From Fidelibacterota bacterium (GTDB taxonomy: Bacteria > Fidelibacterota > UBA8477 > JABMPR01), in contig JABIFG010000329.1 in NCBI GenBank assembly GCA_018650795.1, forward strand, positions 1 to 35,182: 35,182 nucleotides of DNA, read 5' to 3'. Position numbers and translations under genes: made by a program. Below are positions 25,959-30,003 of this stretch, piece after piece (the first letter of the stretch is position 1; each line of letters starts with the position of its first letter). The notes below the pieces were generated by a model. The model had not been told where the DNA came from. It did not search any database and was given only the letters and a program-made list of their open reading frames with translations.

Positions 25959-26887
25959 TCGATGAGCTCCCTTCCAGTCAGCTTCAGAAAGACATCTTCC
26001 AGGGATGAACGTCTGCTGAGTAAAGTTTTGACCGGGATTTTCATATCCTGAATCTGAGCGTGCAAGGGGGTGGCATCAGGCGTATAGAGCAAGAGACGAT
26101 CTGAGAGTGATTCATGGAAATCGATCTGGTCAGCCACTGCAGCAAGGATTTTTTCACGGGCTTGCTTTTCACCACGGATTTCTACAACGTAGGGAGACAC
26201 CTCTGACTTGATCAGATCCCAGGGTGATGCCTCTGAAATTATTTTCCCCCGATCCATGACTGCGATTTTATCACACAATTGCTCAGCCTCATCCATGTAA
26301 TGGGTGGTCAGTAGCAGGGTGACTCCCTGTTCAATTAATTCATGACATTTGGCCCACACATGATGTCTGGCTTGTGGGTCCAAACCGGTGGATGGCTCAT
26401 CCAAAATGAGAATACTGGGTTTATTGATGAGGGCTCTGGCAATTTGAAGACGCCGTTTCATGCCACCACTCAGGGTACGGACATTTTCGTTTCGTTTTTC
26501 AGAGAGCTGAAAGAATTCAATCAGTTCATTAGCCCGGCGGACGGCCTGGTCTCGGGTAAGATCGTAGTAACGGGCATACACCAGTAGATTGTTGATTACA
26601 TTTAAATCGTAATCGAGGCTATCATCCTGGGTGACCACTCCGATGCCTCTTTTTACGGCGCTCATGTTTTCCATGACATTCTCACCATTGACTTCTAGGA
26701 CACCTGAGGTGAGGGGTGTAACGCAGTATATCATACGCATGACAGTGGTTTTACCGGCACCATTCGGTCCCAGGAATCCATAGCATGTTCCGGGCTCTAT
26801 TTGGAAATTCACATCATCAACGGCCTTTAGTGTAGCATACTTTTTGGTAAGATTTCGGGCTTTAATGATGGGGGCTGGTTTATGCAT
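25955..26887 (-). CDS. ABC transporter ATPase (NodI/DrrA-like)
   Basis: This cytoplasmic ATPase of 310 residues partners the NodJ-like permease. It has Walker A GPNGAGKT (40-47), Q-loop segment VVTQDDSLDYDLNVINNL followed by ARYYDL (characteristic of NodI), signature LSGGMKRRLQIARAL, Walker B ILILDEPSTGLDP, H-loop TTHYMDEAE, and a C-terminal DrrA-type extension ending SSLEDVFLKLTGREL. The ATG lacks a strong ribosome binding site. The substrate is not predictable from sequence. It is the first gene of a two-gene operon. Confidence 0.92.
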   Translation of the reverse strand: MHKPAPIIKARNLTKKYATLKAVDDVNFQIEPGTCYGFLGPNGAGKTTVMRMIYCVTPLTSGVLEVNGENVMENMSAVKRGIGVVTQDDSLDYDLNVINNLLVYARYYDLTRDQAVRRANELIEFFQLSEKRNENVRTLSGGMKRRLQIARALINKPSILILDEPSTGLDPQARHHVWAKCHELIEQGVTLLLTTHYMDEAEQLCDKIAVMDRGKIISEASPWDLIKSEVSPYVVEIRGEKQAREKILAAVADQIDFHESLSDRLLLYTPDATPLHAQIQDMKIPVKTLLSRRSSLEDVFLKLTGRELID

Positions 26888-26970
26888 GATTCAACTTACA
26901 CGAAAGTAGAGGGAGTTCAATGAGTTCAATGGGTTTGATGGTTGAGGAGCGAGTGCCTGGTTATTCTGGT

Positions 26971-26989
26971 GGCCGAGGCTCTCGAGGCC
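26971..26989. repeat. Third copy of GAGGYTCTCGA-core hairpin repeat
   Basis: GGCC, then GAGGCTCTCGA, then GGCC reproduce the layout of the two copies at 18571-18623, with different but again complementary arms. A GAGTTCAATGAGTT-like segment precedes it near 26911. It lies in the 300-base gap 26888-27187 between the ABC operon and the TrpR-like gene. An ORF that could be read across it (26920-27120) looks fortuitous. Confidence 0.5.
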
Positions 26990-27150
26990 TGAGGTATAAT
27001 GCTGAGTTTATTGACTTGCTCTCGAAACCGGATGTATTCCAGATAGTTCAAGGTGAGATTCAAGTTGGAGTCACAGGGGCAGATTTATCTCTGCTTAACG
27101 ATGAAGCAGGTAGAGGATGAGAATTTAATTTCCATTGGCTTCAAAAAGGC

Positions 27151-27188
27151 TTGCATTGAGAAAAATATGTTCTAATGTATCAGTGCAA
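27151..27188 (+). promoter_or_regulatory. Candidate promoter/operator of the TrpR-like gene
   Basis: TTGCATTGA (27151-27159) and TCAGTGCAA (27180-27188) form an inverted repeat with eight of nine positions complementary, spaced by 20 bases. The left arm contains a possible -35 (TTGCAT), with TAATGT as -10 sixteen bases on. The right arm reaches the first base of the start codon. This is consistent with autoregulation, but a leader this short would make the mRNA nearly leaderless. Confidence 0.4.
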
Positions 27189-27478
27189 TGAAACAAGAAT
27201 TTACTCATACTGAACTGGCGCACATTCTGACCTCCATTACGGAAGCAAAACAGATGAGTGAATTGCTTCAGGATTTTCTCACGCCTCAGGAGCTGGAAGA
27301 CTTGGTTCTGAGGTGGGAGATAATCAAGCTTCTCCACAAAGGTCTGCCCCAACGGGAAATTGCTAAAGAACTCGGGGTTGCCATTGGAACCGTTTCCCGG
27401 GGAGCCAGAGAATTGAAATACGGCCACAATGGCTTTGTGCAATTGCTCAAAACTTTAGATGAGAAAGCTGACCAATGA
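27188..27478 (+). CDS. TrpR/YerC-like repressor
   Basis: This 96-residue helical DNA-binding protein aligns by eye with E. coli TrpR: LTPQELEDLVLRWEIIKLLHKG, then the helix-turn-helix PQREIAKELGVAIGTVSRGARELK (about 54-77). Of the TrpR tryptophan contacts, T44, R54, T81 and R84 correspond to T32, R42, T68 and R71. S88 is replaced by Glu (E75). The tail KYGHNGF resembles the YerC/YecD branch, so it is TrpR-superfamily but not certainly a tryptophan sensor. Its position just before trpB2, with a W-containing leader-like ORF between, supports tryptophan control. No clear ribosome binding site precedes the ATG. Confidence 0.82.
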   Translation: MKQEFTHTELAHILTSITEAKQMSELLQDFLTPQELEDLVLRWEIIKLLHKGLPQREIAKELGVAIGTVSRGARELKYGHNGFVQLLKTLDEKADQ

Positions 27479-27549
27479 TGCTTTCATCAAACTTATCACC
27501 ACACACATTTTATTGGACCTGGCGTTGTAGTCAGGTTCCCTTTCTTTAA
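27475..27549 (+). CDS. Candidate tryptophan leader peptide, 24 aa
   Basis: A 24-codon ORF begins ATGATG, overlapping the TGA stop of the TrpR-like gene (ATGA), and ends TAA at 27547-27549, 35 bases before trpB2. It contains F-Y-W-T-W-R-C, with Trp codons at 27514 and 27520. Two Trp codons in 24 are notable for so rare a residue, and they lie exactly in the 5' arm of a terminator-like hairpin (27515-27539). The ORF is too short to be a normal gene, so a regulatory leader is the natural reading. GAGAAAG about nine bases upstream could serve as ribosome binding site. The finding is hypothetical but position, content and structure agree. Confidence 0.5.
   Translation: MMLSSNLSPHTFYWTWRCSQVPFL
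27515..27547 (+). terminator. Candidate attenuator hairpin before trpB2
   Basis: GGACCTG (27515-27521) pairs with CAGG-T-TCC (27532-27539), seven base pairs with one bulged T and a 10-base loop, followed by CTTTCTTT. The 3' arm (AGGTTC, 27533-27538) can alternatively pair with GAACCT at 27568-27573, just before the trpB2 Shine-Dalgarno AAGGAG. The structure is of modest stability. Confidence 0.4.
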
Positions 27550-27584
27550 AAAAATAATACTAGAAAAGAACCTAAGGAGTAACC

Positions 27585-28943
27585 GTGAAGAAAATATTTC
27601 TTTCAGAAAATGACATGCCAAAAACCTGGTATAATATAGCTGCAGATTTATTGACAGCCCCCTTGCCACCTTTGAACCCAGGTACTTTACAACCACTTGG
27701 TCCAGACGATTTAGCACCCCTGTTTCCCATGGCGCTCATCGAGCAGGAAATGAGCATGGAACGGGAGATCGCCATTCCAGAGCCAATTCAAGAGGGCTTG
27801 AAGATGTATCGACCATCCCCGCTGATCAGAGCGACAGGTCTTGAGAAAGCATTAAAAACTCCGGCTAAGATATATTTCAAATATGAAGGTGTCAGTCCCG
27901 CTGGCAGCCACAAACCCAATACGGCTATCGCACAAGCTTACTACAATAAGCAGGAGGGGGTCAAGCGTATTGCAACTGAGACTGGTGCAGGGCAATGGGG
28001 TAGCTCAATGGCGTTAGCTGGACAAATGTTTGATCTCGAGGTTAAGGTCTATATGGTGAAGGTAAGTTTTACTCAAAAGCCATATCGACGCTCGATGATG
28101 GAGAGTTGGGGGGCAACAATTGTTCCCAGTCCAAGCATGGATACTGAGTTTGGCCGAAAGATTCTGGCCGAAGATCCAGAGAATACTGGATCGTTGGGAA
28201 TTGCTATCTCCGAGGCAGTGGAGGATGCAGCCAAACGAGACGATACCAAATACTCTCTGGGGAGTGTCCTGAATCATGTACTTCTGCATCAGACGGTTAT
28301 TGGCCTGGAAGCTAAGAAACAGATGGAAATCGCAGGTGACACGCCGGATGTCGTCATCGGGTGCGTTGGTGGTGGCAGTAACTTTGCCGGGTTAGCTTTT
28401 CCATATCTTCGGGATAAAATCAACGGTGCCGATATTGACTTTAGAGCAATCGAACCTAGCGCTTGTCCAACACTGACTCGTGGGAAATTCACCTACGATT
28501 TTGGTGATATGGCACAAATGACCCCATTGGTGTCTATGCATACCCTGGGACATACATTTATGCCTCCGGGAATACATGCTGGCGGATTGAGGTATCATGG
28601 TATGGCACCAATGCTATCCCATGTGGTGAAAGCAGGTTTGGTTGATGCGTATGCCTACCAACAAGTTGAGGTATTTGATGCTGCCGCACTTTTTGCCAGA
28701 ACTGAAGGTATCATTCCAGCACCAGAATCTGCACACGCAATTAAGGGAGCCGTTGATGCGGCTGTCGAAGCTCGAGAAGCAGGTCAGGAAAAAACCATAT
28801 TATTTAATCTGAGTGGGCATGGACATTTCGATATGTCAGCCTATGATGCGTATTTCGCTGGTAACTTGACTGATTATAGACCGACAGATCAAGAATTAGC
28901 AGAGGGATTAGCTTCTACTGATGGTCTTCCTAAAGCCGATTAA
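27585..28943 (+). CDS. trpB2: Tryptophan synthase beta-like protein TrpB2
   Basis: This PLP enzyme of 452 residues, typical of the TrpB2 (COG1350) branch, is longer than TrpB1. It has the N-terminal extension [20 protein letters not shown], the PLP lysine K110 in [17 protein letters not shown], and the phosphate-binding loop GGGSN (262-266). TrpB2 condenses indole with serine, often without TrpA, and may salvage indole or deaminate serine. No trpA or other trp gene is nearby, favouring a stand-alone role. The start is GTG with AAGGAG five bases upstream. The TrpR-like gene, leader-like ORF and hairpin directly upstream suggest tryptophan-responsive expression. Confidence 0.95.
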
Positions 28944-28952
28944 TCTTCATAC

Positions 28953-28995
28953 AGCCGGGTAATTTGAATCTTGAGTTACCCGGTTCTCCTTTTTT
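28953..28995 (+). terminator. Intrinsic terminator after trpB2
   Basis: A ten-pair stem (AGCCGGGTAA with TTACCCGGTT, one wobble) and a 13-base loop are followed by six T residues, ten bases after the trpB2 stop. Confidence 0.85.
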
Positions 28996-29010
28996 AAGGA
29001 TTCCTCCTTG

Positions 29011-29041
29011 ACCCCTGGCTTTGCATCAGTCTGGGGTTTTT
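29011..29041 (+). terminator. Second, weaker terminator-like hairpin
   Basis: ACCCC pairs with GGGGT, with an inner CT/AG pair across an internal loop, followed by a T-rich stretch. It probably acts as a back-up to the preceding terminator. Between 29042 and 29187 I see no clear consensus promoter. Confidence 0.5.
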
Positions 29042-29187
29042 ATTAATGAATACTCTGGCAATTATGTTCCATCTGCACGGTTTCGCTATTTTTTTCGTTT
29101 CATCTATGATTTGAGAGTTTGAAGAGTATTTTCGTGTCCTTAAAAAAAGTAGACAAGAACCTATAGAAGTAGTTTAGGAAAAAGAAA

Positions 29188-30003
29188 ATGAAAAAACGCA
29201 CCGAAAAGTTTTACGACAATCAAGAACTCATACACAGCCCCAGGGGCCGCATGTTACGCATCATGAGCGAATACCTTGGACCCGAGGAAGTGTTTCGAAA
29301 AAATAAGATTCAAGATACGATTGTATTTTTTGGATCAGCCAGAACCCAGCCGAAACATATCGTAACTCAGGCTATTGAAAAAGCTAAAGCCGCGGGAAGC
29401 AGTATTGAAAAGCTGGAGCAGTTAGAACGAGATTTGGGGATGTCGAGATATTATGAAGATGCTCGTGAACTGGCATACAAGATGACGGTTTGGTCAAAAA
29501 AATTAAAACAAAGTAAACGGCGCTTTATAGTTGCAACTGGCGGTGGTCCTGGAATAATGGAAGCTGCTAACAGGGGTGCTGCTGAAGCAAAAGGATTATC
29601 AGTTGGCTTGAATATCTCATTACCTTTTGAACAATCTGGGAATCCATATATCAGTCGAGAGCTGGAGATGGAATTTCATTATTTCTTTATGCGGAAATAT
29701 TGGTTCGTCTATCTCGCCAAAGCTTTGATTGCTTTTCCTGGTGGATTTGGAACCTTTGATGAATTGTTTGAAACTCTGACTTTGATTCAAACCAAAAAGA
29801 TAAGCAAGCATATGCCAATCATGCTGTTTGGAAATCGGTTCTGGGATAAAATGATTGATCTGCAAGGCCTGGCAGATTTTGGAACCATTAGCCATTCTGA
29901 TTTAGATCTATGTTATCGAACTGATAGTGTAGATGATGCCTTTGAGTATCTCACGAAGCAACTCACCGATCTCTACCTGGAAGAGGCTCCAGCAGCTGAC
30001 TAA
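29188..30003 (+). CDS. LOG-family protein (cytokinin-activating/nucleotide-binding, TIGR00730-like)
   Basis: This cytoplasmic Rossmann-fold protein has 271 residues. It carries both signatures of the LOG family, formerly annotated lysine decarboxylase: GGGPGIMEAANRGA (from G118) and PGGFGTFDE (from P184). Family members hydrolyse nucleoside 5'-monophosphates to a base plus ribose 5-phosphate, using the Arg and Glu of these motifs. The N-terminal 45 residues and a lysine-rich insert (about 60-110) make it longer than the minimal form. The ATG follows an A-rich stretch with GGAAAAAG. The last codons overlap the stop of the convergent anmK gene. Confidence 0.9.
   Translation: MKKRTEKFYDNQELIHSPRGRMLRIMSEYLGPEEVFRKNKIQDTIVFFGSARTQPKHIVTQAIEKAKAAGSSIEKLEQLERDLGMSRYYEDARELAYKMTVWSKKLKQSKRRFIVATGGGPGIMEAANRGAAEAKGLSVGLNISLPFEQSGNPYISRELEMEFHYFFMRKYWFVYLAKALIAFPGGFGTFDELFETLTLIQTKKISKHMPIMLFGNRFWDKMIDLQGLADFGTISHSDLDLCYRTDSVDDAFEYLTKQLTDLYLEEAPAAD

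Follow-up and report, generated by a model that had tools for sequence, protein, structure and literature searches.

A candidate tryptophan leader overlapping the trpR stop codon ahead of trpB2 in one genus of Fidelibacterota

In the TrpL leader of Escherichia coli, a hairpin includes the Trp codons as part of its first arm, as is also the case in the leader described here. The E. coli trp operon combines a short leader containing neighboring Trp codons with a TrpR operator at the promoter, according to the excerpt of PMC7755916. In Chlamydia trachomatis, which has no de novo Trp synthesis, trpR is the first gene of the Trp salvage operon trpRBA, and a putative trpL lies between trpR and trpB. 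As presented in the excerpts of PMC7755916 and PMC6504234, this TrpL is 59 amino acids long, contains no consecutive Trp codons, is unvalidated and is predicted to attenuate poorly, and the trpR-trpB spacer includes a second promoter along with a YtgR operator. Candidate Trp attenuators with double or triple UGG codons are found in Corynebacterium and Streptomyces, including one before C. diphtheriae trpB2A; these have GC-rich terminators with poly-U, and the excerpted part of PMC1262725 mentions no coupling to trpR. The same excerpt describes leader peptides in Mycobacterium cys operons that are without obvious terminators, and suggests that these operate through Rho.

The window, a stretch of 35,182 nucleotides, carries trpR, a short open reading frame with Trp codons, and trpB2, in that order (Table 1). 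Compared with the excerpted account of the E. coli trp operon, trpR is here the first gene, and the leader is joined to it by a stop/start overlap. The gene targeted is a solitary trpB2, a conserved terminator was not found, and the stop codon is in or beyond the second arm of the hairpin. Like the chlamydial operon, the locus begins with trpR, has a putative Trp leader ahead of the TrpB gene, and belongs to an organism that probably makes no Trp de novo. In contrast to the chlamydial leader as excerpted, this one is a short ORF that overlaps trpR and is conserved within its genus, and the enzyme is TrpB2 without TrpA. Conserved regulatory codons and the lack of a conserved intrinsic terminator are shared with the Mycobacterium cys leaders, as far as the excerpt of PMC1262725 extends, but the amino acid, gene and phylum differ, and the regulatory codons here share bases with a conserved hairpin. 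Neighboring UGG codons are shared with the Corynebacterium and Streptomyces candidates, and C. diphtheriae trpB2 has the same name as the present gene. Among the literature matches listed, the portions seen contain no description of a trpR-leader-trpB2 arrangement, and no paper in the collection searched treats Marinimicrobia together with TrpR. According to the excerpt of PMC2395257, no significant trpR homologue turned up when the Sargasso Sea set was searched in 2008.

Table 1. Features of the trpR-trpB2 locus in coordinates of the window
Feature	Position	Strand	Basis or remark
Promoter-like pair, TTGCAT (27151-27156) and TAATGT (27173-27178)	27151..27178	+	Upstream alignment; promoter role inferred
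TrpR operator-like imperfect palindrome, GTTCTAATGTATCAGTGCA	27169..27187	+	Pattern search; last base adjoins trpR ATG
trpR, TrpR-like repressor, 96 aa	27188..27478	+	PF01371, 80.5 bits (cut-off 27)
Trp leader ORF, 24 codons	27475..27549	+	Start within trpR stop; frame and Trp codons kept in 16/17 genus loci
C-rich, G-free leader part, possible Rho loading segment	27481..27510	+	10 C and 0 G in 30 nt
Candidate regulatory codons TGG ACC TGG (Trp14, Thr15, Trp16)	27514..27522	+	Trp count in in-frame leaders
Hairpin 1:2, 9 bp, arms 27515-27523 and 27530-27538	27515..27538	+	Folding; 91.4% of cells paired, 17 sequences
Pyrimidine tail, CCTTTCTTT	27539..27547	+	Terminator-like in only part of the genus
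Segment 3, GAACCT	27568..27573	+	Complementary to AGGTTC (27533-27538) in 3' arm
Shine-Dalgarno of trpB2, AAGGAG	27574..27579	+	Read directly
trpB2, TrpB-like PLP enzyme	27585..28943	+	TIGR01415, 644.9 bits (cut-off 518.85); GTG start
Terminator-like hairpin after trpB2, CTCCTTTTTT tail	28953..28985	+	Pattern scan

The leader peptide of the window is MMLSSNLSPHTFYWTWRCSQVPFL. Its ATG (27475-27477) shares bases with the TGA stop codon of trpR (27476-27478) in the sequence ATGA, its Trp codons are at 27514-27516 and 27520-27522, and its stop codon is at 27547-27549. When positions 27479-27584 were subjected to 200,000 mononucleotide shuffles and read from the ATGA, at least two Trp codons preceded a stop in 0.38%, and WW or WxW occurred in 0.06%. 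Because the leader is conserved in the 17 genus loci, it is well beyond chance. A sequence-only reading had proposed this ORF with its ATGA start and two Trp codons, had placed the Trp codons in the 5' arm of a hairpin upstream of trpB2, and had seen the overlap as a link between the repressor and a leader ahead of a stand-alone TrpB2. The ORF is present as described and can be read directly, the hairpin is borne out with its stem end corrected to 27538, and the overlap is confirmed as a conserved feature of the genus. The same reading had named Trp codons kept amid a drifting peptide as a sign in its favor, and this is seen in 16 of the 17 loci and fails in L017.

The genus comparison comprises 17 trpR-trpB2 spacers from 19 genomes, representing 17 related species and compared by sequence only; L037-L050 repeat loci already in the set and were left out of the counts. 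The order trpR, leader element, trpB2 is found in 17 of the 19 genomes. G016 contains only the end of trpB2, at a contig edge, and its missing element is likely an assembly gap; G018 has no trpB2 match. The distance from the trpR stop to trpB2 is 96-123 nt in 14 loci and 295-389 nt in the remaining three (L010, L022, L026). The extra spacer between leader and trpB2 in L022 contains simple tandem repeats.

All 17 spacers contain at least two TGG triplets plus the hairpin, and in 16 the Trp codons are in frame with the start that overlaps the trpR stop. The overlap is ATGA or GTGA in 16 loci (L017 included) and TAATG in L020. Distances from the start to the last Trp codon are multiples of three in the 16 in-frame loci (36, 45, 48, 51, 54 or 63 nt) and 53 nt in L017, where the Trp codons are out of frame. 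Three Trp residues occur in 11 of the in-frame leaders (W-W-T/I-W), and two occur in the other five (YWTW, LWTW, WRTW, EWNW and WKIW). The N-terminal part of the peptide drifts, and the C-terminus varies in length and sequence. The leaders thus lack the conserved C-terminal residues that follow the Trp, at the stop codon, in TnaC-type arrest peptides, which sense free Trp.

The leader stop codon lies 9-33 nt past the last Trp codon, in or beyond the hairpin. Six species have an early TAG (L010, L012, L018, L022, L025, L026), keep the frame to the last Trp codon, and complete the 3' arm of the hairpin with bases past the stop, which argues for a role at the RNA level. The window has no match in Rfam release 15 at the gathering score, and a permissive search of 27400-27650 returned three sub-threshold matches, none of which is a Trp leader. 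As in the TrpL class, a short ORF with repeated Trp codons precedes a Trp gene.

Hairpin 1:2 has a folding energy of -14.2 kcal/mol. Its stability stands out locally (z of -4.05 with 0/200 shuffles as stable for 41 nt, and -2.70 with 3/200 for 61 nt), and for the whole 116 nt z is only -1.36, with 21/200 shuffles as stable. Over the 17 sequences, the fraction of paired cells given in Table 1 compares with at most 68.4% for slid versions of the arms.

The leader frame, the Trp codons, the stop/start overlap, the hairpin, the operator-like site and the gene context all recur in the comparison. We consider it rather likely, from this pattern, that the Trp-codon leader serves as a second control on trpB2, acting after TrpR repression, and ribosomes would likely stall at its Trp codons. 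In Trp-rich cells, TrpR with tryptophan would shut the trpR promoter via the operator at 27169-27187. On transcripts that escape while Trp is plentiful, ribosomes would end trpR, traverse the coupled leader and leave, so that hairpin 1:2 could form and cut off expression ahead of trpB2. When Trp-tRNA is scarce, ribosomes would stall on the TGG codons and, to judge from the geometry, cover the 5' arm and block 1:2. The freed 3' arm would then pair downstream (2:3), trpB2 would be expressed, and Trp would be made from salvaged indole. For the output step, we rank premature transcription termination (by Rho or at a weak intrinsic site) first and translation initiation second; the Rho-dependent, intrinsic-terminator and translational alternatives weighed below are versions of this same step.

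If the second-control reading is correct, TrpR and Trp-codon control would extend to an uncultured marine phylum, and would act on a lone, probably indole-salvaging enzyme instead of a biosynthetic operon. It would also provide a conserved case of a leader in a trpR-trpB spacer, where the chlamydial leader is putative.

The first layer of this proposed control depends on trpR and its upstream region. The protein belongs to the TrpR family by Pfam PF01371, and its score against the TrpR equivalog TIGR01321 (60.7 bits) is under the cut-off of 67.25. Near relatives of it, with 76-89% identity, are with one exception labeled Candidatus Neomarinimicrobiota, and 21 of the 23 genomes in the order contain TrpR. 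Alignment upstream of trpR in 16 genus loci reveals CTTG in 16/16, CTTGCAT in 13/16 and TTCTAATGTATCAGT in 16/16. As predicted from these sequences, transcription probably begins at the trpR ATG or immediately upstream of it, and the transcript would be near leaderless. When one mismatch is allowed, the operator-like pattern has a single match in the genome that carries the window, namely the trpR site, and 17 of the 19 genus genomes have it upstream of their trpR. A backward control pattern has 3 matches in total over the same 19 genomes. The site also precedes the trp operon in four of the five genus genomes that have trpA and trpC; in the fifth, G008, an operator-like site noted by eye is 2 positions off the pattern.

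Rho-dependent attenuation is a possible if somewhat doubtful form of the output step. Here the C-rich leader would be a Rho loading site, shielded by stalled and queued ribosomes when Trp is scarce and exposed by released ribosomes when it is plentiful. In the leader before the Trp codons, pooled over 17 loci, C makes up 31.2% and G 6.6% of the bases, compared with 21.0% and 24.8% in trpR, and this bias is in the top 5% of windows of its own locus in 10/17. The genome also encodes Rho. Because the leader is C-rich and G-poor and an intrinsic terminator is unsupported, Rho-dependent output is a live alternative. However, the bias falls outside the top 5% in 7/17 loci and is ordinary in L018 and L026, and the leader segment measures 21-48 nt. 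Rho sites are usually longer than this. Moreover, stalled ribosomes usually promote downstream Rho polarity, as illustrated by chlamydial ytgD in the excerpt of PMC7755916. In one specific combination, ribosomes would arrive at the Trp sensor chiefly by completing trpR, since the leader start lies within the trpR stop, and this repressor-coupled attenuator would lack an intrinsic terminator and use the C-rich leader as a Rho loading site shielded by stalled ribosomes. As a whole, this combination is unlikely. If it were true, a single transcript would sense repressor output, free Trp and Trp-tRNA together.

Classical attenuation, in which the hairpin at 27515-27538 and CTTTCTTT would be an intrinsic terminator whose action a stalled ribosome prevents, is also unlikely. 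The terminator-like pattern was matched in a scan, the T-run score nT is 2.2-3.5 in 10/17 loci (1.26 in the window), and the GAACCC segment could serve as an antiterminator. However, the scan of 26800-29200 found 4 terminator-like sites when 1.8 were expected. By a d'Aubenton-Carafa-type score with a threshold of zero, all 17 leader hairpins are negative, ranging from -3.7 to -61.2, with -29.6 in the window. Hairpins after trpB2 score above zero in 6 of 13 scorable loci; because the other seven are also below zero, the score may undervalue the terminators of this genus. No T-run is visible by eye in six leaders (L007, L010, L012, L022, L025, L026). A conserved intrinsic terminator in the leader was rejected on the grounds of these scores and missing T-runs.

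The position of the stop codon also weakens the classical scheme, since in the window it lies past the hairpin, where the T-run ends. With such a stop, within the hairpin or past it, a ribosome that translates the whole leader would cover the hairpin too. The attenuation claimed by the sequence-only reading is well supported by comparison in its sensor half, the Trp-codon leader, and not in its terminator half. The covarying hairpin arms for which it had hoped were not found either: in the 17 sequences, covariation of the 1:2 arms is equal to that of shuffles, and the 5' arm is nearly invariant.

In the alternative pairing 2:3, the partner of the outer 3' arm is a segment located 25-32 nt downstream. 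The window has AGGTTC/GAACCT; five relatives have GGGTTC/GAACCC, two more have it with one mismatch, and L022 and L026 have GGCTC/GAGCC. Among the 102 cells of the 17 loci, 81 are paired, a value reached in 9 of 5000 permutations when relatedness is ignored and, for three of the loci, the best of four spacings is taken, a choice that favors pairing. In the 14 loci anchored by the Shine-Dalgarno, 68 of 84 cells are paired, and 119 of 5000 permutations, again ignoring relatedness, reach this value. These sequences thus suggest modest covariation. In none of the 17 loci does the duplex energy exceed the shuffle mean (mean z of -1.5), single-locus p-values range from 0.012 to 0.484, and five of the 17 are less than 0.05. 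The pairing is weak or located elsewhere in L008, L010, L012, L018 and L025.

A switch between 1:2 and 2:3 might alter access to the trpB2 Shine-Dalgarno, but such translational attenuation is quite unlikely. It would fit with the location of segment 3, which adjoins the Shine-Dalgarno in the window and near relatives, and with the 3' arm of L008, L012, L018 and L025, which pairs with or beside it. When 14 of the 17 loci were folded in free and stalled states, however, the predicted openness of the Shine-Dalgarno upon stalling decreases in 11 and increases in 3, usually by a small amount, and its sequestration was rejected as a uniform mechanism. Because openness falls in the stalled state, direct pairing would turn trpB2 off in starvation. 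Also, termination fits better than Shine-Dalgarno control with the three loci in which 295-389 nt separate the trpR stop from trpB2.

That the ORF is non-regulatory, either a chance frame in the spacer or part of an untranslated conserved hairpin, is very improbable: L017 is out of frame, and the Trp codons overlap a hairpin arm so that their conservation could be structural, but the start overlap and multiple-of-three spacing are present in 16/17 loci, and the six leaders with an early TAG keep the frame through the last Trp codon.

The second-control reading, in which the leader acts on trpB2, can be set against the Trp physiology of these organisms. The assembly that carries the locus is 4.42 Mb and 91% complete. 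TrpB2 is the only TrpB homologue found in it (a single match), and it has no trpA over the cut-off, no trpC and no second trpB. Because trpA and trpC were not found and TrpB2 is alone, the organism probably cannot make Trp from chorismate. From known TrpB chemistry, TrpB2 is predicted to join salvaged indole with serine, and probably does so here. Both trpC and an above-cut-off trpA are present in five of the 19 genus genomes, and 11 of 13 others have only short sub-threshold trpA matches, which we take as unrelated barrels. Leaders of the five trp operons have two Trp codons in L077 and L079, one in L078 and L080, and none in frame in L081; the two with two codons count for the second-control reading, and the three with one or none count against it. 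In L077, L078 and L081, the trpC domain is inside one ORF of 1380 aa, and in L079 and L080 it is in the second of two ORFs of approximately 607 and 773 aa.

Elsewhere in the phylum, 14 TrpR loci were examined. The next gene is trpB or trpB2 in 11 of these, all without a leader, and the leader therefore looks specific to the genus. In L014, L021, L024, L030 and L031, trpB2 starts 11-23 nt past the trpR stop, and in L023 and L032-L036, trpB starts inside, at or just past this stop. The two genes overlap in L032, L034, L035 and L036, with ATGA in both L035 and L036 and with TAATG in L034. The leader occupies the place at which L034, L035 and L036 begin trpB in the trpR stop, which is suggestive of its origin. 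The pair trpR-trpB is recurrent in other families of the phylum. In L027-L029 (family f27), the product of the gene next to that for the TrpR-like protein resembles HisG by eye, and the TrpR-like protein is possibly a HisR-like regulator.

A covariance model of the hairpin was built from the 17 loci, which match it by construction. It found no second copy in the 17 genomes, and only three weak matches (G028, G210 and G187) in the remainder of 244 phylum genomes. These were rejected as copies of the element, as they look like unrelated coding sequence by eye.

Upstream of trpR in the window, approximately 40-54 bases of the stretch 26976-27030 are repeated in three further contigs of the genome, with 78-85% identity. 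This stretch is perhaps a small dispersed repeat.
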